Assembly: GCF_010731615.1 (NCBI RefSeq)
Contig: NZ_AP022618.1
Coordinates: forward strand, 1,922,001-1,986,000
DNA length: 64,000 nt
Source of the DNA: Mycolicibacterium insubricum
GTDB taxonomy: Bacteria; Actinomycetota; Actinomycetes; Mycobacteriales; Mycobacteriaceae
Direction: 5' to 3'
The notes under the pieces are model-generated. The model was not told the origin of the DNA and did no database searches. It was given only the letters and a program-made list of their open reading frames with translations. Numbering within the stretch: position 1 is the stretch's first letter; each line of letters begins with the position of its first letter. Below, in pieces: positions 2,048-47,978 of this stretch. The position numbers and the translations under genes are program-made.

Positions 2048-4423
2048 ATGACAACGGGCCCACAGGTTTCCAGAACCCATCTGCCGATTCCGAGCGCGCC
2101 GCGAACGGGACTGGTCACCTACGACGCGAAGGATCCGGACACCCCGCATCCGCTGATCCGCGACATCCGGCCCCCGGAGGGCGCCCCGAACATCCTGGTG
2201 GTCCTGCTCGACGATGTCGGGTTCGGTGCGGCCAGCGCGTTCGGCGGGCCGTGCGCCACCCCGACCGCCGAACGGCTCGCGGCCGGCGGTCTGAAGTACA
2301 ACCGGTTCCACACCACCGCCTTGTGTTCACCCACGCGGCAGGCCCTGCTGACCGGGCGTAACCATCACTCGGCGGGGATGGGTGGGATCACCGAGATCGC
2401 CACCGGCCAGCCCGGCTACAACTCGGTGCTGCCCAACACCATGTCGCCGATCGCGCGGACCCTCAAGCTCAACGGGTACAACACCGCGCAGTTCGGCAAA
2501 TGCCATGAAGTGCCGGTGTGGCAGACCAGCCAGGTGGGGCCGTTCGACGCCTGGCCCAGCGCCGGTGGGGGTTTCGAGCACTTCTACGGCTTCATCGGCG
2601 GCGAAGCCAACCAGTGGTACCCCTCGCTGTACGAGGGGACCACCCCGATCGAGGTGGACCGCACCCCCGAGCAGGGCTACCACCTCACCGAGGACCTGGC
2701 GGACAAGGCGATCGCCTGGATCGGTCAGCAGAAGGCCCTCGCACCGGACAAGCCGTTCTTCACCTACTTCGCGCCAGGCGCCACCCACGCCCCGCACCAC
2801 GCACCCAAGGACTGGATCGACAAGTACCGCGGCAAGTTCGACGCCGGCTGGGATGCATTGCGGGAGCAGACCTTCGCCCGGCAGAAGGAACTCGGGGTGA
2901 TCCCGCAGGACGCCGAGCTGACGCCGCGGCCCGAGCAGATCCCGGCCTGGGACGACATGCCCGAGGAGCTCAAGCCCGTGCTGCGCCGGCAGATGGAGGT
3001 CTACGCAGGGTTCCTCGAGCACACCGACCACCACGTCGGCCGGGTCATCGACGCGCTGGACAAGCTCGGAATACTCGACGACACCTTGGTCTACTACATC
3101 GTCGGGGACAACGGCGCCTCCGCCGAGGGCACCTTCAACGGCACGTTCAACGAGATGCTGAACTTCAACGGGATGGCCGCGCTGGAGACACCCGAGTTCC
3201 TGATGGAACGCCTCGACGAGTTCGGCGGCCCGGACTCCTACAACCACTACGCGGTGGGCTGGGCGCACGCCATGTGCACCCCATACCAGTGGACCAAGCA
3301 GGTCGCCTCGCACTGGGGTGGCACCCGCAACGGCACGGTGGTGCACTGGCCCAACGGTTTCCAGTCCCGCGGCGAGCATCGTGATCAGTTCCATCACGTG
3401 ATCGACGTGGCGCCCACTTTGCTGGAGGCCGCCGGGATCCCGGAGCCGCTGTTCGTCAACGGGGTGCAGCAGGCGCCGATCGAGGGCACCAGCATGCTGT
3501 ACTCGTTCAACGACGGCGGGTCCGCCGACCGGCACGAGACCCAGTACTTCGAAATGTTCGGCAACCGCGGCATCTACCACAAGGGCTGGACCGCGGTGAC
3601 CAAGCACAAGACACCGTGGGTGCTCATGGGCGAGGACACCGTCGCATTCGATGACGACGTGTGGGAACTCTATGACACCACGGTCGACTGGACCCAGGCG
3701 AAGGATCTGTCGAAGGAGCAGCCGCAGCGTCTGCACCAATTGCAGCGACTGTGGCTGATCGAGGCGACGCGATTCAACGTCCTGCCGCTGGACGACAACC
3801 TCACGGTCAGGATGAATCCCGACCTGGCCGGACGCCCGACGCTGATCAAGGGGAACACGCAGGTGCTGTTCGCGGGGATGGGGCGGCTCTCGGAGAACTG
3901 CGTGCTCAACCTCAAGAACAAGTCGCACTCGGTGACCGCCGAGATCGACGTGCCCGAGGGCGGCGCCGAAGGCGTGATCGTCGCGCAGGGCGCCAACATC
4001 GGCGGCTGGTCGCTGTACGCCCACGGAGGCAAGCTCAAGTACTGCTACAACCTCGGTGGCCTGCAGCATTTCTTCGCCGAATCCGCCGAACCGCTGCCTT
4101 CCGGTGCGCATCAGGTGCGCATGGAATTCGCCTACGACGGGCCGGGTCTGGCTAAGGGCGGCACGGTGACCCTGTTCGTCGACGGCGCCGCGGTGGGTAC
4201 CGGGCAGGTGGCGGCAACGCTGACCAACGTGTACTCCGCCGACGACGGGCTCGACGTCGGTGCGGACACCGGTTCGGCGGTCTCACCCGACTACCGGCCA
4301 GGTGACAACCGCTTCACCGGCCGGGTGCGCGGCGTGCAACTGGCGATCGCCGAGGAATCTGACGCCGCCGGCCATCAGGTGGACCCCGCCGAGGCCGTGC
4401 GGATCGCCCTGGCCCGCCAGTAG
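2048..4423 (+). CDS. Arylsulfatase (AtsA/AtsD-like)
   Basis: A 791-residue type I sulfatase, predicted to hydrolyse sulfate esters. Visible features are the metal-binding NILVVLLDDVGFG near residues 48-60 and the sulfatase signature CSPTR (Cys93-Arg97) in which Cys is converted to formylglycine, followed by LLTGR and a GK-containing segment. The length is close to the mycobacterial AtsA/AtsD proteins (about 787). The C-terminal third (from about residue 600) is a beta-rich concanavalin-like region typical of the long bacterial sulfatases. I chose ATG 2048 because GGAGAGG lies about 10 nt upstream; an in-frame ATG at 2006 would add 14 residues. No formylglycine-generating enzyme is in the window. 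The substrate cannot be inferred. Confidence 0.9.
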   Translation: MTTGPQVSRTHLPIPSAPRTGLVTYDAKDPDTPHPLIRDIRPPEGAPNILVVLLDDVGFGAASAFGGPCATPTAERLAAGGLKYNRFHTTALCSPTRQALLTGRNHHSAGMGGITEIATGQPGYNSVLPNTMSPIARTLKLNGYNTAQFGKCHEVPVWQTSQVGPFDAWPSAGGGFEHFYGFIGGEANQWYPSLYEGTTPIEVDRTPEQGYHLTEDLADKAIAWIGQQKALAPDKPFFTYFAPGATHAPHHAPKDWIDKYRGKFDAGWDALREQTFARQKELGVIPQDAELTPRPEQIPAWDDMPEELKPVLRRQMEVYAGFLEHTDHHVGRVIDALDKLGILDDTLVYYIVGDNGASAEGTFNGTFNEMLNFNGMAALETPEFLMERLDEFGGPDSYNHYAVGWAHAMCTPYQWTKQVASHWGGTRNGTVVHWPNGFQSRGEHRDQFHHVIDVAPTLLEAAGIPEPLFVNGVQQAPIEGTSMLYSFNDGGSADRHETQYFEMFGNRGIYHKGWTAVTKHKTPWVLMGEDTVAFDDDVWELYDTTVDWTQAKDLSKEQPQRLHQLQRLWLIEATRFNVLPLDDNLTVRMNPDLAGRPTLIKGNTQVLFAGMGRLSENCVLNLKNKSHSVTAEIDVPEGGAEGVIVAQGANIGGWSLYAHGGKLKYCYNLGGLQHFFAESAEPLPSGAHQVRMEFAYDGPGLAKGGTVTLFVDGAAVGTGQVAATLTNVYSADDGLDVGADTGSAVSPDYRPGDNRFTGRVRGVQLAIAEESDAAGHQVDPAEAVRIALARQ

Positions 4424-6031: not shown

Positions 6032-7537
6032 GTGCACCTGGGCGAAGGCGAGGAGTTTGCCGGCTTCACCGTGGTACGGCGACTGGGCGGCGGCGGCATG
6101 GGCGAGGTGTACCTGGCGCAGCATCCCCGGTTGCCCCGACTCGACGCACTGAAGGTGCTGAACCCCGAGATTTCCGCCGACGATGACTACCGGGTCCGGT
6201 TCCTCCGCGAGGCAGAGATGGCCGCCGGGCTGGGACATCCGCACATCGTCAGCGTGCACGACCGCGGCGAGACCGAGGACGGCACCCTCTGGGTGTCCAT
6301 GGAGTACGTCGAAGGCATCGACGCCGGGGCGTATCTGGCCCGCCACTATCCCGACGGGATGCCGCTGTGGATGGTCACCGAGATCACCCTGGCGATCGGT
6401 GCGGCGCTGGACTACGCGCACGGGCAGCGCCTGCTGCACCGCGACGTCAAACCGGCCAACATCCTGCTCGGGGACCTGGGCGAGGGCCAGTACCGGGTGG
6501 TGCTGACCGACTTCGGCATCGCCCGCGTCGAGGGCGAGGAACACCGGCTGACCGAAGCCAATATGACTGTCGGGACCGTCAACTACACCTCGCCGGAGCA
6601 GCTGACAGCCGACCACCTGGACGGCCGGTCCGACCAGTACTCACTGGCCGCGACCGCCTACCACCTGCTGACCGGCAAGCCGCTGTTCGCTGACTCGAAC
6701 GCCGCGGTCGTCATCGGCAGCCACCTGAGCGTCGAGCCGCCCCCGGTGTCCGAACAGCGTCCGGAACTGGCCGAACTGGATGAGGTGGTGGCTCGCGGCC
6801 TAGCCAAGGACCGGGACGCGCGGTATCCGAACTGCACGGCGTTCGCCCGGGCACTGTCCGGCCTGCCGGAGCAGAGCGGCGAATTCACCGTGGGGCGGGC
6901 CGTCGTCACGGCGTCCGGACCGATCCCCAGGACCACCGGTACCCAGGGCCGGCACCGGGCCGACGCCGACGAGGACGACGACGGCTACTGGGAGACTGCA
7001 GGATCCCAGCCGACGATGTTGGCACCGGCGGCGCAGGGCACGTCGAACAAGAGGCTGCTGTGGGCCATGCTGGTCGGCGTTCCGCTCATCGTGATCGCGA
7101 CCGTGCTGCTGGTGCTGGCTCTGCTGCCCGAGGGGCTCGGTACCGGCCGCTACCGGGGCGAGGCGACGTCGACGGCCGCGCCGACCGAGGCCCGGACACC
7201 GGTGCCGTCGACCGCGGCCCAGGCTCCGGTTCCACCGGCCGCCCCGACGACGGCGTCCGGTCGGCATCCCTGGACGGGGGTGGTGGCGGTCGAGTGCGGT
7301 GGCACCGAGCCGTGTGAACTGCAGCAACGCAACGCGCCCTACACCAGCGCTCCCCGGTTGCATCCCGAAGGCCTGCACAACGGCACCGTCGTCAGCCTCG
7401 CCTGCCACGTCGTCGGCGATGAGCGCAGCAACCCGGGCGACGGCAGCAGCCGGCTCTGGTACCGGCTGTCCAACGGCGCCTACGTGAACTCGGTGTACCT
7501 CGACAACGTCATCGCGACGGGGATGCAGCCGTGCTGA
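6032..7537 (+). CDS. Transmembrane Ser/Thr protein kinase (PknF-like), copy 1
   Basis: A 501-residue receptor-type Hanks kinase. The intracellular catalytic domain spans about residues 10-275, with a glycine loop [12 protein letters not shown], catalytic Lys41, HRD 136-138 (VKPAN follows) and DFG with Asp160. The activation segment carries several threonines (ANMTVGTVNYTSPEQ). After an acidic juxtamembrane linker comes one membrane segment (about 342-364), then a Thr/Pro-rich stalk and an extracellular domain of about 90 residues with four cysteines and the core QQRNAPYT...LWYRLSNGAYVNSVYLD, probably SH3-like. The second kinase is a tandem paralogue with the same layout. The GTG start is set by the leaderless -10 box. 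Ligand and substrates are unknown. Confidence 0.92.
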   Translation: MHLGEGEEFAGFTVVRRLGGGGMGEVYLAQHPRLPRLDALKVLNPEISADDDYRVRFLREAEMAAGLGHPHIVSVHDRGETEDGTLWVSMEYVEGIDAGAYLARHYPDGMPLWMVTEITLAIGAALDYAHGQRLLHRDVKPANILLGDLGEGQYRVVLTDFGIARVEGEEHRLTEANMTVGTVNYTSPEQLTADHLDGRSDQYSLAATAYHLLTGKPLFADSNAAVVIGSHLSVEPPPVSEQRPELAELDEVVARGLAKDRDARYPNCTAFARALSGLPEQSGEFTVGRAVVTASGPIPRTTGTQGRHRADADEDDDGYWETAGSQPTMLAPAAQGTSNKRLLWAMLVGVPLIVIATVLLVLALLPEGLGTGRYRGEATSTAAPTEARTPVPSTAAQAPVPPAAPTTASGRHPWTGVVAVECGGTEPCELQQRNAPYTSAPRLHPEGLHNGTVVSLACHVVGDERSNPGDGSSRLWYRLSNGAYVNSVYLDNVIATGMQPC

Positions 7538-7602: not shown

Positions 7603-9162
7603 ATGCCATTGGGGGTTGATCAGCAGTTCGCCGGCTATACGGTGGTGCGCCGACTCGGTGCCGGCGGGATGGGCGAGGTGTACCTGGCGCAGCATCCGCG
7701 GTTGCCGCGCCGCGACGCGCTGAAGCTGCTGACCGCCGACGTGTCGGTGGACCCCAGCTTCCGGGAGCGCTTCCTGCAGGAGGCCGACCTCGCCTCGACG
7801 CTGTGGCACCCGCACATCGTCGGCGTGCACGACCGCGGCGAATGTGACGGACAACTGTGGATCTCGATGGACTACGTCGAGGGCGAGGACGCGTCGGGCG
7901 TACTGGCCGGCAGCTATCCCGACGGGATGCCCCCGGATATGGTCGCGACGATCGTCACCGGCGTGGCCTCAGCGCTGGACTACGCGCACTCCCAGGGGCT
8001 GCTGCACCGCGACGTCAAGCCCGCCAACATCCTGATCGGGGATGCCGCCGACCCGAGGCATCGGCGAATCCTGTTGACCGACTTCGGGATTGCCCGCGCG
8101 GTCGGCGAGGCCAGCGGGCTGACGGCGACGAACATGACGATCGGGACGGTCGACTACACCGCACCTGAGCAGCTGCTCGGCGAGGAGCTGGACGGGCGCG
8201 CCGACCAGTATGCGCTGGCGGTGACCGCCTACCAGCTGCTGTGCGGCCGGCCGCCGTTCCGCGACACCAACGCGGCAGTGGTCATCGGGCGCCACCTCAA
8301 CGCCGCGCCGCCGCCGCTGTCGAAGACCCGCCCACAGCTGGCCGCGCTGGATCCGGTGTTCGCCCGGGCGCTGGCCAAGAAACCGGCCGATCGCTACCCC
8401 AATTGCGGGGCGTTCGCCGCGGCACTGGCCGACGCGATCGCCGCGCCGGGCGAGGCACCCGTGGCACCGGAAGCGCCGGCGACGACGGTGCTGCCCAGAC
8501 CGTCGGACGAGGAACCCCCGGTGCTGGTGGCGCAGATCCCGGCCGCCGCGGCGCCGGAGCCGTCCGTCGTCGACCGGCTCACCCATCCACCGTCTTCGCC
8601 CGGCCCTGCCGCGCCGCCGAACTGGCAGCCGCCGCCCGGCGCCTACTTCGACGGGCGGCAATGGCAGACGGCCGCCCCGGCGTCCGGTTCGGGTAATCGG
8701 ACCCCGGTGCTGCTGGCGGTCGCCGTGGTGGCGTTGCTGGCGATCGCCGGGATCGTCGTGCTGATCGTGTCGCTGGGCGGCTCCTCGCAGGACACCGCCG
8801 ACCGCACCGCTGCGGCCCCGACCAGCAGCTACCGGTCGCCGACCTATGCGGCCCCGCCGGCGTATACCGCGCCCGCCACCACCGCGGCGCCGGCCGTCGG
8901 GCTGACCGGCCGGATCGTGGGCACCTGCGACGAGGGCGGTACCTGCGGACTCAAGCAGCGCAACGCGCCGTATACCGCCGCCGGCCGGCTGGTGCCGGGC
9001 GACCTGCAGGACGGCAACGTGGTGACGGTGTCCTGCTCGGTCAGCGGTGACCTGCGCAGCAACGAGGGCCACGGGTCCAGCAGCGTGTGGTACCGGCTGG
9101 CCAACGGTGCCTACGTGCCCTCGGTGTACCTCGACGGCGTGGGCTCGGTCCCGTCGTGCTGA
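7603..9162 (+). CDS. Transmembrane Ser/Thr protein kinase (PknF-like), copy 2
   Basis: A 519-residue paralogue of the preceding kinase. Landmarks are the glycine loop [12 protein letters not shown], Lys41, HRD 135-137 and DFG Asp160, with activation-loop threonines in [17 protein letters not shown] proline/alanine-rich linker with a short [18 protein letters not shown] segment precedes one membrane helix (about 367-391). The extracellular domain repeats the first kinase's four-cysteine pattern and KQRNAPYT...[16 protein letters not shown]. The stop overlaps the start of the M14-peptidase lipoprotein by 7 nt, so the two are translationally coupled. This suggests the kinase responds to, or is read together with, an envelope peptidase. 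Confidence 0.92.
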
Positions 9163-43413: not shown

Positions 43414-43432
43414 GGCGACGCAGTGCGTCGCC
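43414..43432. promoter_or_regulatory. 19-bp palindrome upstream of FHA-ABC gene
   Basis: GGCGACGCA-G-TGCGTCGCC, perfect 9-bp arms, 20 nt before the probable ATG of the FHA-ABC transporter. Operator or 5' hairpin. Confidence 0.5.
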
Positions 43433-43452
43433 CGACAGACGGGACTACGGGG

Positions 43453-46400
43453 ATGGTCGATGTGGGGGCCGCGGCGCCGCTCACCGTGCGCATGGGGTCG
43501 GCGATCCATACCTTCCCCGCGGGCCGCGAGGTCCTGGTGGGCCGCAACCCGGCCTGTGACATCCGCATCGACGCCGCTCAGGACCTGATCTCGCGCACCC
43601 ACCTGGTGCTGCACACCGAGGGCGCCGACTGGGTTGCCGAGGATCGCAGCAGCAACGGCATCTTCGTCGACGGCAACCGGGTGTCACGGGTCCCGATCAC
43701 CGACGACGTCGCCATCGCTCTCGGCGCCCCCGACGGCCCGCGCCTGACCTTCCAGCTCAGCACCACCATCATCCGACTCGCCGACGTGCACGCGCTGGGA
43801 TGCGCCCAGACCGGGCCCCGGTCCGGACCCGTGGGCCCGCCGCCGCAACCGCCGGCACCCCCGCGACCCGCGCCGATGGCGCCCCGACCGATGCCCCCGC
43901 AGCCCGGTGTCCCTATCGGGCCGGGGGACATGCGCACCCCGGTGCCCGTCGACAACGACACCGTGTCCCGGATGACCAACGTGGTCAAGCGGGTGTTGCC
44001 GCAGCGCCCGGCCGGCCCGCCGCCGGGAGCGGTGGTGATCGGGCGCGCCGAGGACAGCGGCGTCGTCGTCGTCGATGCGCTGGCCTCCCGCCTGCACGCC
44101 TTCCTGGTGCGGACCCCCGCCGGCGTCGAAATCCGGGACAACTCCAGCAACGGCACGTTCGTCAACGGTGCGCGGATCATGACCGCCCTGCTGACCCCCG
44201 GTGACGTCGTCACCATCGGTAACACCGACCTCACCTTCAACGGGACCACCCTGGTGCCCCGGGAGGCCGCGCCACACACCGCCGGGGTCGCCGCATACCG
44301 GGTCGGCCTGACCGTGGAGGACGACAAGGCACTGCTGCAGGACGTGTCGTTCCAGGCCCGGCCGGGCACCCTGACCGCGGTGATCGGCCCGTCGGGAGCG
44401 GGCAAATCCACGCTCATCCGGGTGCTCGGCGGCGGTGACCACCCCACCACCGGCTGGGTCAGCTTCGACGGGCACGACGTGCACGCCGAGTACGCCTCGC
44501 TGCGCTCCCGCATCGGCGTGGTGCCGCAGGACGACGTCGTGCACCGCCAGCTGACCGTGCAGCGCGCCCTGCAGTACGCCGCCGAACTGCGGCTGCCACC
44601 GGACACCAGTCGCGACGACCGGGACCGGGTCATCGCCGACGTGCTGGCCGAGCTGGAACTCACCGAGCATCGCGACACCCGCATCGACAAGCTGTCCGGC
44701 GGTCAGCGCAAACGGGTGTCGGTGGCGATGGAGCTGCTGACCGGGCCCTCGCTGCTGATCCTCGATGAGCCCACCTCCGGACTGGACCCGGCGCTGGACC
44801 GCCATGTGATGGCGATGTTGCGCCGACTGGCTGACGCCGGCCGGGTGGTCGTCGTCGTCACCCACTCGCTGACCTACCTCAACGTGTGCGACCAGGTGCT
44901 GCTGCTGGCCCCGGGCGGCAAGACCGCCTACGCCGGCGCGCCGGGCGCCGTCGCGGCCGCCATCGGCACCTCGGACTGGGCCGACATCTTCGCCTGGATC
45001 TCCACCGATCCCGACGGCGCGCACTCGGCGTTCCTGGCCCGCTCCGGCTACACCACGCCGCCCGAGCCCGCGCTGACCGGCGGCCCGATGGGATCCCCGG
45101 CCGCTACCAGCCTGCGCCGCCAGCTCTCCACGGTGGCGCGGCGCCAGTTCCGGCTGATGCTGGCTGACCGGGCGTACTTCGTCTTCCTGGCCCTGCTGCC
45201 GTTCGTGCTGGGTTCGCTGGCGCTGGTGGTGCCCGGCCACACCGGCCTGGGCCGGGCCTCGTCGAGCAGTTCGTCGCCGCAGCAGGCCGCGCAGCTGTTG
45301 ATCCTGCTCAACATCGCGGTGGTGTTCATGGGCACCGCGCTGACCATCCGGGACCTGGTGGGCGAGCGGGCGATCTTCCGGCGGGAACAGGCCGTCGGGC
45401 TGTCCGCCTCGGCGTATCTGGCTGCCAAGTTCGTGGTCTACGCGTTGGCGGCGGCGATCCAGACGGCGGTGCTGCTGGTGATCGTGGTGGCCGGCCAGGG
45501 CGGCCCGACCCAGGGGGCGGTGCTGCTCGGCAGCCCGGTACTGGAGCTGTACGTGGCGCTGACGGCGACCGCCATCGCGTCGGCGGTGCTGGGTCTGCTG
45601 CTGTCCTCGCTGGCCAGATCCACCGAGCAGATCCTGCCGATGCTGGTGGTCACCATCATGCTGTCGATCGTCTTCGCCGGCGGCATGATCCCGGTGACCG
45701 GGCGTATCGGGCTGACCCAGCTGTCCTGGTTGCTGCCGGCCCGCTGGGGCTATGCGGCGACCGCCTCGACGATCGACCTACTCAAGGCCTCGCCGCTGGA
45801 GACCAATAAGGACCAGCTGTGGTTCCACGAGGCGCGCTGGTGGCTGCTGGACATGGCTGCACTGGTGGTGCTCACACTGGCCTACGGCGCTGCGCTGCGC
45901 TGGCGGCTGCGGTTGCCGCGGCTGCGTGCGACGGTCGCGCGCCCGGTGCCCGGGGCTGCCGCACCGGGTGCCCCCACCGACACCGGACCCCGACCGGCCG
46001 CGGCGGCGGGCAAGGAGCGTTCCGCCGTGCGCTGGGCAGCGGTCATCGGCATCGTCGCGGTGATCGCGCTGGTGCTGACCGGGCTGTCGGTGATCACCCG
46101 CGACAGCGGCACCCGCAAGGTCAGCGTCGGCGCGTCGTGGGAGTCCGACGACGACAAGCCGGCCAAACAGCCGGTGGCCGAGGACCAGCTGGCGGGCCTG
46201 CTGATGTCGCCGTCGGCCCTGGGTTCGGAGATGTCCTCGTCGCCGATGGGAAAGGCCACGCCGGCCCGGTTCGACAAGCCGCGCACGACGGCCATCACAC
46301 CGCCGGACTGCACCAGTGCCGTGGAGGTGGCCAGTGCTTCGGTCTACACCGCCGATTCCGGCTTCACCGCGCTGGCCGGCCAGACCGTGATCGACCCCAC

Positions 46401-46734
46401 CGAACCCAACCGCATGGTCGAGGAGGCGATGGTGGCGTTCCCGGATGCCGACGCCGCCGGCTCCTTCGAGGACGACCTGGGTTCGTCCTGGCGGCACTGC
46501 GACCACTCGGTGGCGACGTTCCCCGGCGCCGACGGGGCGCCGGTGTCGGTCAGCATCGGTGGCTACGAGAGTGTCGACGACCGCACGACGATCCTGTTGT
46601 CGATGCCCGGGCGGATCTGCCAGCGCGCGATGCAGGCCGTCTCCAACGTCGTCATCGATGTCCGCAGCTGCGCGCCGGAACCGGGCAAACAGGCCGCCGA
46701 GATCGTCAAGCGGATTTCCAACAACATCCGGTAG
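43453..46734 (+). CDS. FHA-FHA-ABC transporter fused to a PknH-type sensor domain
   Basis: A 1093-residue fusion. FHA1 spans about residues 10-100 (GR30-31, SRTH, SSNGIFVDG); a Pro-rich linker leads to FHA2 at about 195-275 (GRAEDS, NSSNGTFVNG). The ABC ATPase spans about 285-510, with Walker A GPSGAGKST, LSGGQRKR and LLILDEPTSGLD. An ABC2-type membrane domain with six helices covers about 570-815. Up to here it mirrors Rv1747 (865 residues), a PknF substrate. A further membrane helix (about 861-881) and a C-terminal extracellular domain (about 912-1093) follow, with conserved PPDCTSAV, AVVAFP-like VAFPDADAA, WRHC, RICQRAM and VIDVRSC, matching the PknH sensor fold. ATG 43453 chosen; GTG 43423 possible. 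Confidence 0.9.
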   Translation: MVDVGAAAPLTVRMGSAIHTFPAGREVLVGRNPACDIRIDAAQDLISRTHLVLHTEGADWVAEDRSSNGIFVDGNRVSRVPITDDVAIALGAPDGPRLTFQLSTTIIRLADVHALGCAQTGPRSGPVGPPPQPPAPPRPAPMAPRPMPPQPGVPIGPGDMRTPVPVDNDTVSRMTNVVKRVLPQRPAGPPPGAVVIGRAEDSGVVVVDALASRLHAFLVRTPAGVEIRDNSSNGTFVNGARIMTALLTPGDVVTIGNTDLTFNGTTLVPREAAPHTAGVAAYRVGLTVEDDKALLQDVSFQARPGTLTAVIGPSGAGKSTLIRVLGGGDHPTTGWVSFDGHDVHAEYASLRSRIGVVPQDDVVHRQLTVQRALQYAAELRLPPDTSRDDRDRVIADVLAELELTEHRDTRIDKLSGGQRKRVSVAMELLTGPSLLILDEPTSGLDPALDRHVMAMLRRLADAGRVVVVVTHSLTYLNVCDQVLLLAPGGKTAYAGAPGAVAAAIGTSDWADIFAWISTDPDGAHSAFLARSGYTTPPEPALTGGPMGSPAATSLRRQLSTVARRQFRLMLADRAYFVFLALLPFVLGSLALVVPGHTGLGRASSSSSSPQQAAQLLILLNIAVVFMGTALTIRDLVGERAIFRREQAVGLSASAYLAAKFVVYALAAAIQTAVLLVIVVAGQGGPTQGAVLLGSPVLELYVALTATAIASAVLGLLLSSLARSTEQILPMLVVTIMLSIVFAGGMIPVTGRIGLTQLSWLLPARWGYAATASTIDLLKASPLETNKDQLWFHEARWWLLDMAALVVLTLAYGAALRWRLRLPRLRATVARPVPGAAAPGAPTDTGPRPAAAAGKERSAVRWAAVIGIVAVIALVLTGLSVITRDSGTRKVSVGASWESDDDKPAKQPVAEDQLAGLLMSPSALGSEMSSSPMGKATPARFDKPRTTAITPPDCTSAVEVASASVYTADSGFTALAGQTVIDPTEPNRMVEEAMVAFPDADAAGSFEDDLGSSWRHCDHSVATFPGADGAPVSVSIGGYESVDDRTTILLSMPGRICQRAMQAVSNVVIDVRSCAPEPGKQAAEIVKRISNNIR

Positions 46735-46796: not shown

Positions 46797-47978
46797 TCAG
46801 CGCGATCCCCAGTGCCAGGGTGGCGCGTCCAGCAGACCCTGACCGCGGATCAGTGTCTCGCCCAGGTCCTTGTACAGCTCGAGTTCTACGGCGTCGCTGT
46901 CGCCGGACGGGTCACCGACCGCACCCAGGGCATCGCGCAGTGCGGCCGAATGCGTCACCACCACAACCTGGGTGGACCGCGACGCGGCGACGATCAACCG
47001 GCCCAACGGCGCCAGCAGCTCCGGGTGCAGACTGGTCTCCGGCTCGTTGAGCACCATCAGCGACGGCGGCTCGGGACTCAGCAGGGCGGCCGACCACAAC
47101 AGGAAACGCAGTGTGCCGTCGGACAGTTCGGCCCCGCGCAGCGGGCGCAGCAGACCCGGCTGGGACAGCGCGACGTCGAACAACCCCTCCCGCACGGTGA
47201 CCGCCACCGTGGCACCGGCGAAGGCATCGGCCACGGCGTCGGCCAGACGGTCCGCACCGGTGGATTCGATGATGGTCTGCAGCGCGGCGGCCAGGTCGCG
47301 ACCGTCGTCGGCCAGCACCGGGGTGCGGGTACCCACCTGCGGCAGTCGGGCGGGGGCATCGGCGTCGGCGCGGAAACCGTCGTAGAACCGCCACCCGCGC
47401 AACCGGTCGCGCACCGCGGCGAGTTCGGGCAGTGCCGCGGGCTGGGCGTATTCGGCCAGCACGCTGCGATAGCTGGGCAGGCCCTGGGTCAGTTTCGCGA
47501 ACTCGCCCGAGTCGTCGCGGGCCGCGGCATACGGGCCGTCGCGGTGCACCAGGGTGCCGGCCGGGCGCAGCGCCGGCCCGGCGAACACCGCCTCCCGCTT
47601 GATCTCCGGGTCACGGCTGAACTCCGAATTGTGGCCGGCATAGACCGGCAGGCCGAGATCGATCAGATAGCCGAAGTCGTCGGCGGAAAACCCCAGGGCC
47701 AGCGACACCGGCTCGCTGCGGGCGGTGCCCTGCACCCGGCCGGTACTGCGCGCCGCACCGAGGGTCTCCGGGCCGGCCCACAGCGCCGAGCCCAGCCCGC
47801 CCTCGCGGGCCAGTGACCCGATCACCTCGCCGCGGCCGCAGTCGGCGAGCAGGCGCAGCGCCCGGTAGGTGCTCGACTTACCGGATCCGTTGGCACCGGT
47901 GATCACGGTCAGCCCGCGCAGCGGCAGCACCAGGTCGCGCAGCGAACGGTAGCCGCGGATGGCGACGGTGGAGAGCAT
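46797..47978 (-). CDS. AAA family ATPase (SMC/RecF-like, AAA_21)
   Basis: A 393-residue predicted ATPase. N-terminal VAIRGYRSLRDLVLPLRGLTVITGANGSGKSSTYRALRLLA includes Walker A. The ABC-like signature is AELSDGTLRFLLW, and the Walker B region is SLMVLNEPETSLHPELLAPLGRLI, followed by VVVTHSAAL. Such stand-alone AAA_21 proteins often act in DNA repair or defence but this one has no nuclease partner. ATG 47978 has a leaderless promoter: TAGGGT (47990-47985), 6 nt, ATG. It converges with the FHA-ABC gene. Confidence 0.88.
   Translation of the reverse strand: MLSTVAIRGYRSLRDLVLPLRGLTVITGANGSGKSSTYRALRLLADCGRGEVIGSLAREGGLGSALWAGPETLGAARSTGRVQGTARSEPVSLALGFSADDFGYLIDLGLPVYAGHNSEFSRDPEIKREAVFAGPALRPAGTLVHRDGPYAAARDDSGEFAKLTQGLPSYRSVLAEYAQPAALPELAAVRDRLRGWRFYDGFRADADAPARLPQVGTRTPVLADDGRDLAAALQTIIESTGADRLADAVADAFAGATVAVTVREGLFDVALSQPGLLRPLRGAELSDGTLRFLLWSAALLSPEPPSLMVLNEPETSLHPELLAPLGRLIVAASRSTQVVVVTHSAALRDALGAVGDPSGDSDAVELELYKDLGETLIRGQGLLDAPPWHWGSR

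Follow-up and report, generated by a model that had tools for sequence, protein, structure and literature searches.

An Rv1747-kind FHA-ABC exporter carrying a C-terminal PknH_C domain in Mycolicibacterium insubricum and its relatives

Gene and domain architecture

The window analysed here is a 64,000-nucleotide stretch of the M. insubricum genome (NZ_AP022618.1, positions 1,922,001 to 1,986,000), and our subject is one gene in it, which encodes an Rv1747-type ABC exporter joined to a domain otherwise familiar from the receptor kinase PknH. An uninterrupted open reading frame (ORF) occupies 43423-46734 on the plus strand. With the ATG at 43453 it encodes a protein of 1093 residues, which begins at the same residue as P0001, a database relative at 94% identity. 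Pfam recognises in this protein, hereafter the fusion, two FHA stretches, ABC_tran, ABC2_membrane and PknH_C, in that order. A sequence-only reading had described it as a FHA-FHA-ABC-membrane unit followed by a seventh membrane helix and a C-terminal domain with the PknH pattern, and Pfam, hydropathy and an AlphaFold model bear this out. The features are as follows.

43453..46734, + strand: whole gene, FHA-FHA-ABC exporter-seventh helix-PknH_C, 1093 residues (ORF, Pfam, start of the relative)
43468..43767, + strand: FHA domain 1, about residues 6-105 (Pfam FHA in two stretches, own profile, model)
43768..43992, + strand: Pro-rich disordered linker joining the two FHA domains, about residues 106-180 (predicted local distance difference test, pLDDT, below 50 at 105-185)
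43993..44274, + strand: FHA domain 2, about residues 181-274 (best Pfam stretch 204-266 of the 1103-residue form; own profile)
44278..45045, + strand: ABC nucleotide-binding domain (Pfam, own profile, motifs)
45106..45933, + strand: ABC2 membrane domain, six helices (Pfam, own profile, hydropathy, model)
46012..46095, + strand: seventh membrane helix, residues 854-881, with low-confidence linkers at 821-857 and 889-903 (hydropathy, model)
46174..46731, + strand: PknH_C domain, residues 908-1093, with four conserved Cys (PF14032, match to 4ESQ, model)
46797..47978, - strand: neighbouring AAA_21 ATPase gene, convergent, 80% identical to the AAA_21 gene of locus L039 (Pfam, comparison)

PF14032 (PknH_C) matches residues 908-1090 with an E-value of 1.7e-26 and 93.7 bits against a cut-off of 27, which settles the identity of the domain first noticed by its motifs. 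Both FHA domains keep the GR, SRxH and NG motifs, and the Walker A, LSGGQ signature, Walker B and H-loop of the ABC domain are all intact. A linker Thr in the sequence SRMTN is common to 12 of the 16 other fusions of alignment A1; the stretch is absent from the remaining four. GC content at third codon positions (GC3) hardly varies from one end of the gene to the other (0.921, 0.925 and 0.917), and there is thus no sign of a recent insertion of the PknH_C domain. The gene is flanked by an SDR gene and the AAA gene, and does not form a two-gene operon with a pknF-type kinase.

Fold and topology of the PknH_C domain

The motifs PPDC, WRHC, CQRA and VIDVRSC carry Cys 953, 1016, 1056 and 1073. These four residues are invariant in 27 aligned fusions and align with the four Cys of the PknH sensor structure 4ESQ, giving two predicted disulfides. 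The domain is modelled with a pLDDT of 94.8 (block means of 85-96 within the whole-protein model), and structure comparison of the model gives it the PknH sensor fold, with 4ESQ matched. The same fold is found in the tube-forming protein TiME, to which the match is less close than to 4ESQ.

Hydropathy and the AlphaFold model place six membrane helices and a seventh at about residues 854-881; with seven predicted helices the PknH_C domain would lie outside the cytoplasm. In the model, a monomer with a predicted template modelling score (pTM) of 0.52, the pLDDT falls below 50 in the linkers 105-185, 821-857 and 889-903. Because its flanking linkers are of such low confidence, the domain looks tethered and not packed on the membrane domain, although at this pTM the model gives a hint only.

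The M. insubricum genome holds 11 PknH_C matches, this fusion being one and three belonging to PknH-type kinases. Another is a 926-residue protein (L001:4052-6829; G000:C1:2488051-2490828) with three tandem PknH_C domains, no kinase and a hydrophobic stretch near its N-terminus. A 910-residue ORF (L002:3672-6401) has a kinase domain that begins only at residue 347, its start codon having been set mechanically, followed by PknH_C; its neighbours are another kinase with PknH_C and a gene for PknH_C alone.

Distribution and origin of the fusion

We searched 396 sampled genomes of the genus with a profile of the membrane part plus PknH_C, scoring three candidates per genome. Among the matches listed by E-value, full-span matches (at least 565 bits) occur in 27 genomes, M. 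insubricum included, and those that follow score at most 484 bits and mostly end after the membrane part. The first FHA domain is in frame in 25 of the 27 fusions; of the two in which it was not seen, L040 lies where a contig ends and L044 in sequence containing N letters. The fusion is therefore commoner than the sequence-only reading had supposed, and its recurrence in 26 further genomes, together with the E-value of 1.7e-26, rules out an assembly error or a chance match. A separate search of 61 relatives gave four fusions, the M. insubricum one and three already among the 27. In a family sample of 251 genomes from 31 genera, at an E-value of 1e-150, the only match listed was M. insubricum itself, and no fusion was found in 24 genomes of the same order outside the genus.

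A protein-database search with residues 545-1103 of the 1103-residue form passed 2833 relatives, and 59 of the 120 listed carry PF14032. Names among the listed relatives include M. brumae, M. iranicum, M. setense, M. mucogenicum, M. koreense, M. thermoresistibile, M. avium subsp. hominissuis and M. abscessus. Some fusions bear the NCBI label 'sensor domain-containing protein', so the architecture is already present in public databases; a literature search, whose coverage excluded most subscription journals, found no published study of an FHA-ABC-PknH_C architecture. Five fusions are plasmid-borne (M. alvei, M. adipatum, M. branderi, strain CBMA 213 and strain P1-18). The fusion thus belongs to a known kind of exporter, of which it is a conserved and apparently uncharacterised variant.

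In a tree of 46 ABC-membrane parts the fusions split into groups of 23 and four on starred branches, with fusion-free groups between them; constraining them to one clade costs 14.6 log units (p 0.0785). In a PknH_C tree of 86 rows all 27 stand together (80/87, not starred), separate from the kinase and solo domains in that tree, and two additional rows in their group are the same genes fetched twice. A single ancient fusion followed by losses fits both trees, and two origins are a further possibility.

Genes next to the fusions

Flanks of up to 5 kb on either side of the 27 fusion genes were set against those of 19 fusion-free paralogues. An LprG/LppX-family lipoprotein gene is present in 18/27 fusion loci and in none of the 19; in 14 of the 18 it follows the fusion directly, in the same orientation and at a distance of -55 to 171 bp. 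These calls come from Pfam (PF07161) on two proteins and, for the rest, from a profile built from those two. An LppX_LprAFG lipoprotein is annotated near the fusion in three of four plasmid records, the exception being that of L061 (three of the four records are loci L043, L049 and L061).

Six other families recur, with Pfam confirming the neighbour families on examples. DUF4189 is found in 17/27 fusion loci against 0/19, a solo PknH_C gene in 15/27 against 0/19, and DUF7373 in 10/27 against 0/19. Zn metallopeptidases occur in 15/27 (17 with overlapping frames allowed) and in none of the 19. FHA ORFs are present in 17/27 against 1/19, that one (L072) being a split piece of the anchor and the L046 ORF being cut by the stretch end. 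A PknQ-like kinase, with a periplasmic-binding-protein outer part, is encoded in 10/27 (the L044 one is an edge fragment) against 0/19; PF01497 was found as the outer domain of the three kinases tested (L043:770-2830, L048:9667-11670 and L052:10726-12783). One subclade of six loci has the solo PknH_C gene 12-13 bp downstream of the fusion in five of six and an LprG gene within 5 kb in none.

LprG and DUF4189 genes are both present in the closest relative among the 27, L039, which is identical over 940 residues to an entry from Mycolicibacterium brumae. The AAA_21 gene follows the window fusion convergently, whereas in L039 it precedes the fusion and points away from it. The site has therefore been rearranged, and loss of the lipoprotein gene from the window locus is the simplest inference.

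Elsewhere in these neighbourhoods, one fusion has an EccD gene (type VII secretion) some 2.6 kb upstream (L048:1283-3055), and the family recurs in six loci of that subclade. ORFs of about 300-360 residues stand directly upstream of some fusions and have no Pfam match at an E-value of 0.001 (L041:9452-10405, L042:8972-9880 and L053:2870-3943).

A second transporter and the kinases

M. insubricum encodes two Rv1747-type transporters. The second (L037:4227-6908, 894 residues) has the FHA-FHA-ABC-membrane order without PknH_C; it is 51% identical to the fusion over 885 columns and groups with L079-L081, far from the fusions, in the tree of 46 parts. P0069, a protein from M. botniense that NCBI names Rv1747, matches the fusion at 69% identity across roughly half of the part searched and is nearer to it than the L037 copy is; database names do not settle which of the two is the Rv1747 orthologue. 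A kinase ORF lies directly upstream of the fusion-free transporter in L079 and in none of the fetched stretches of L037, L080 and L081.

The sequence-only reading had proposed that one protein senses outside, exports, and receives kinase input through its FHA domains. The fusion, the PknH_C identity and the intact FHA and ABC motifs hold; sensing by the domain is a proposal, the same fold being found in TiME and the commonest linked gene being that of a lipid-carrier lipoprotein. Kinase input through the FHA domains is plausible, with a PknQ-like kinase gene in ten of the 27 loci and none adjoining the window copy. The two kinases at 6-9 kb, which had been suggested as candidates, are real by Pfam and about 35 kb from the fusion, and no computed result links them to it. 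The first shares 62% identity, over 273 residues of its kinase part, with the kinase encoded directly before the L079 transporter, which has no PknH_C. These tandem kinases (6032-7537 and 7603-9162) show one strong hydrophobic peak each, and their tails are similar, contain Cys, end in ...WYRLxNGAYVxSVYLD and have no Pfam match.

Divergence and exchange of the end domain

Between the fusion and P0001, 44 of the 61 differing columns fall within the 189 PknH_C residues and one within the 270 membrane-domain residues. In all 12 close pairs, some of which have loci in common, the ratio of nonsynonymous to synonymous substitution rates (dN/dS) of PknH_C stays under 1, at 0.12-0.56, and exceeds that of the ABC and membrane domains. 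The PknH_C domain is thus retained while it changes faster.

One pair points to a different mode of change. After 1200 bp at 98.5-100%, the DNA identity of L047 and L058 drops from 100% to 81-85% at about bp 2600, just before PknH_C, and stays low over a block of about 2600-3200. Synonymous divergence (dS) rises from 0.013 in the membrane domain to 0.62 in PknH_C. The pattern is that of a block exchange of PknH_C in this pair, which makes one case and no rule; the same two genes also show weaker mosaicism upstream and within the ABC part, and in several other close pairs the PknH_C dS is near that of the remaining gene.

Possible roles of the fusion

An Rv1747-like pump, a PknH_C domain and a frequent LprG-type gene behind them are together most simply read as a lipid export relay. 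The analysis establishes architecture, fold, conservation and gene linkage, from which substrate, binding and hand-over are inferred. We tentatively favour, short of calling it probable, a phospho-regulated exporter of the Rv1747 kind whose own periplasmic PknH_C domain binds the exported lipid for hand-over or metering. Rv1747 is a PknF substrate (PMC3908365, available text), its clustering is said in the accessible part of PMC8573418 to be driven by phosphorylation, and its loss lowers levels of phosphatidylinositol mannosides (PIM), for which an exporter role is proposed in the part consulted of PMC5549992. By analogy with Rv1747, kinases would set clustering or activity of the exporter through the FHA domains and the disordered linker. 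The membrane domains would then carry the substrate, probably a mycobacterial glycolipid or another acylated lipid, to the outer leaflet, where PknH_C on its flexible linkers may bind it in a cleft. PknH_C would pass the lipid to a periplasmic carrier, or its occupancy might stop or start the pump. In many relatives the carrier would be the adjacent LprG/LppX-type lipoprotein, whose gene is missing from the window locus. LprG binds PIM, lipoarabinomannan and triacylglycerol (TAG) and moves TAG between membranes, according to the available part of PMC4709180.

Several observations weigh against this relay. The window fusion has none of the seven module gene families within 5 kb, LprG/LppX included, and the genome's two LprG-family genes (C1:118104 and C1:2478641) share 24-33% and 34-39% identity with the 18 linked to fusions, too little for either to be accepted as the lost partner relocated. 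Four of the 18 lipoprotein genes are 2.3-4.5 kb from their fusion, one of them divergent upstream: 2.3 kb downstream in L049, 4.5 kb upstream and divergent in L052, and 4.4 kb upstream in L062 and L063, which belong to the small fusion clade. The fusion loci share ancestry, so the neighbourhood counts are not independent; in addition, the fusion-free loci were compared over shorter flanks (2.3-5.1 kb). The 50 structural matches listed for the PknH_C model include no chain of LprG or LppX, a result that excludes nothing, and the available text of a review gives the domain no known ligand.

Most of the remaining weight goes to a sensor, which we consider possible but less likely: an outside ligand on PknH_C would alter transport or clustering via the seventh helix, with kinases acting from the inner side by way of the FHA domains. 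In PknH-type kinases, of which this genome has three, PknH_C forms the outer part, and NCBI labels some fusions 'sensor domain-containing protein'. The kinase genes near ten of the 27 fusions, the three tested having a periplasmic-binding-protein outer domain, put signal modules in the setting. However, the low-confidence linkers 821-857 and 889-903 beside the seventh helix argue against stiff coupling, a point that a monomer model with a pTM of 0.52 cannot settle, and the commonest linked gene is that of a lipid carrier. If the sensed ligand were the exported lipid, the sensor and the relay would merge.

More speculatively, and on balance doubtful, PknH_C could be a shared periplasmic ligand-binding fold: an envelope lipid monitored by kinases would also be bound by the exporter and passed to an LprG-type carrier, coupling export to kinase control, and block exchange between alleles would change recognition. 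Improbable, to our mind, is an assembly part in which TiME-like PknH_C rings extend the exporter into an envelope conduit; the fold is shared with TiME, but 4ESQ is the closer match, and an ABC dimer supplies two PknH_C copies, not a ring. We give very little credence to a relic, the pump of an often plasmid-borne module kept without its partners and with little present function in this genome, for although the bare locus beside the LprG and DUF4189 genes of L039, the AAA gene lying on opposite sides in the two and the five plasmid loci fit it, 1093 codons are open, the catalytic motifs are intact, GC3 is about 0.92 throughout and the 94%-identical relative is likewise full length.

To our knowledge, little is understood of how mycobacterial exporters of the inner membrane pass lipids on. 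A PknH_C-exporter fusion beside a lipid-carrier gene in many relatives points to acylated glycolipids as a candidate ligand class, and PknH_C is not solely a kinase part. What stands out is that the gene is often linked to that of a lipid carrier and that its end domain changes fast and is sometimes exchanged.

Comparison with known systems

The nearest system is the Rv1747-type L037 copy of the same genome, which shares two FHA domains, the ABC domain and the membrane domain with the fusion; it ends after the membrane domain and belongs to another clade, whereas the fusion continues with the seventh helix and PknH_C. The sensor of the PknH receptor kinase (4ESQ, PF14032) is joined there to a Ser/Thr kinase and here to an exporter. 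TiME (Rv3705c, 7CU8/7CU9) is a free-standing, tube-forming envelope protein of weak sequence similarity, with 18% identity. In the PknQ-MupFHA pair of an M. ulcerans plasmid, a kinase with a periplasmic-binding domain is encoded close to an FHA gene, an arrangement that several fusion loci also show, and PknQ binds and phosphorylates the neighbouring FHA protein; the available part of that report mentions no exporter fusion (PMC4238996). In the LprG-Rv1410 pair, as described in the accessible text of PMC4709180, a membrane transporter gene likewise adjoins an LprG-family lipoprotein gene, but Rv1410 is a major facilitator superfamily protein and the transporter described here is an ABC protein with PknH_C.
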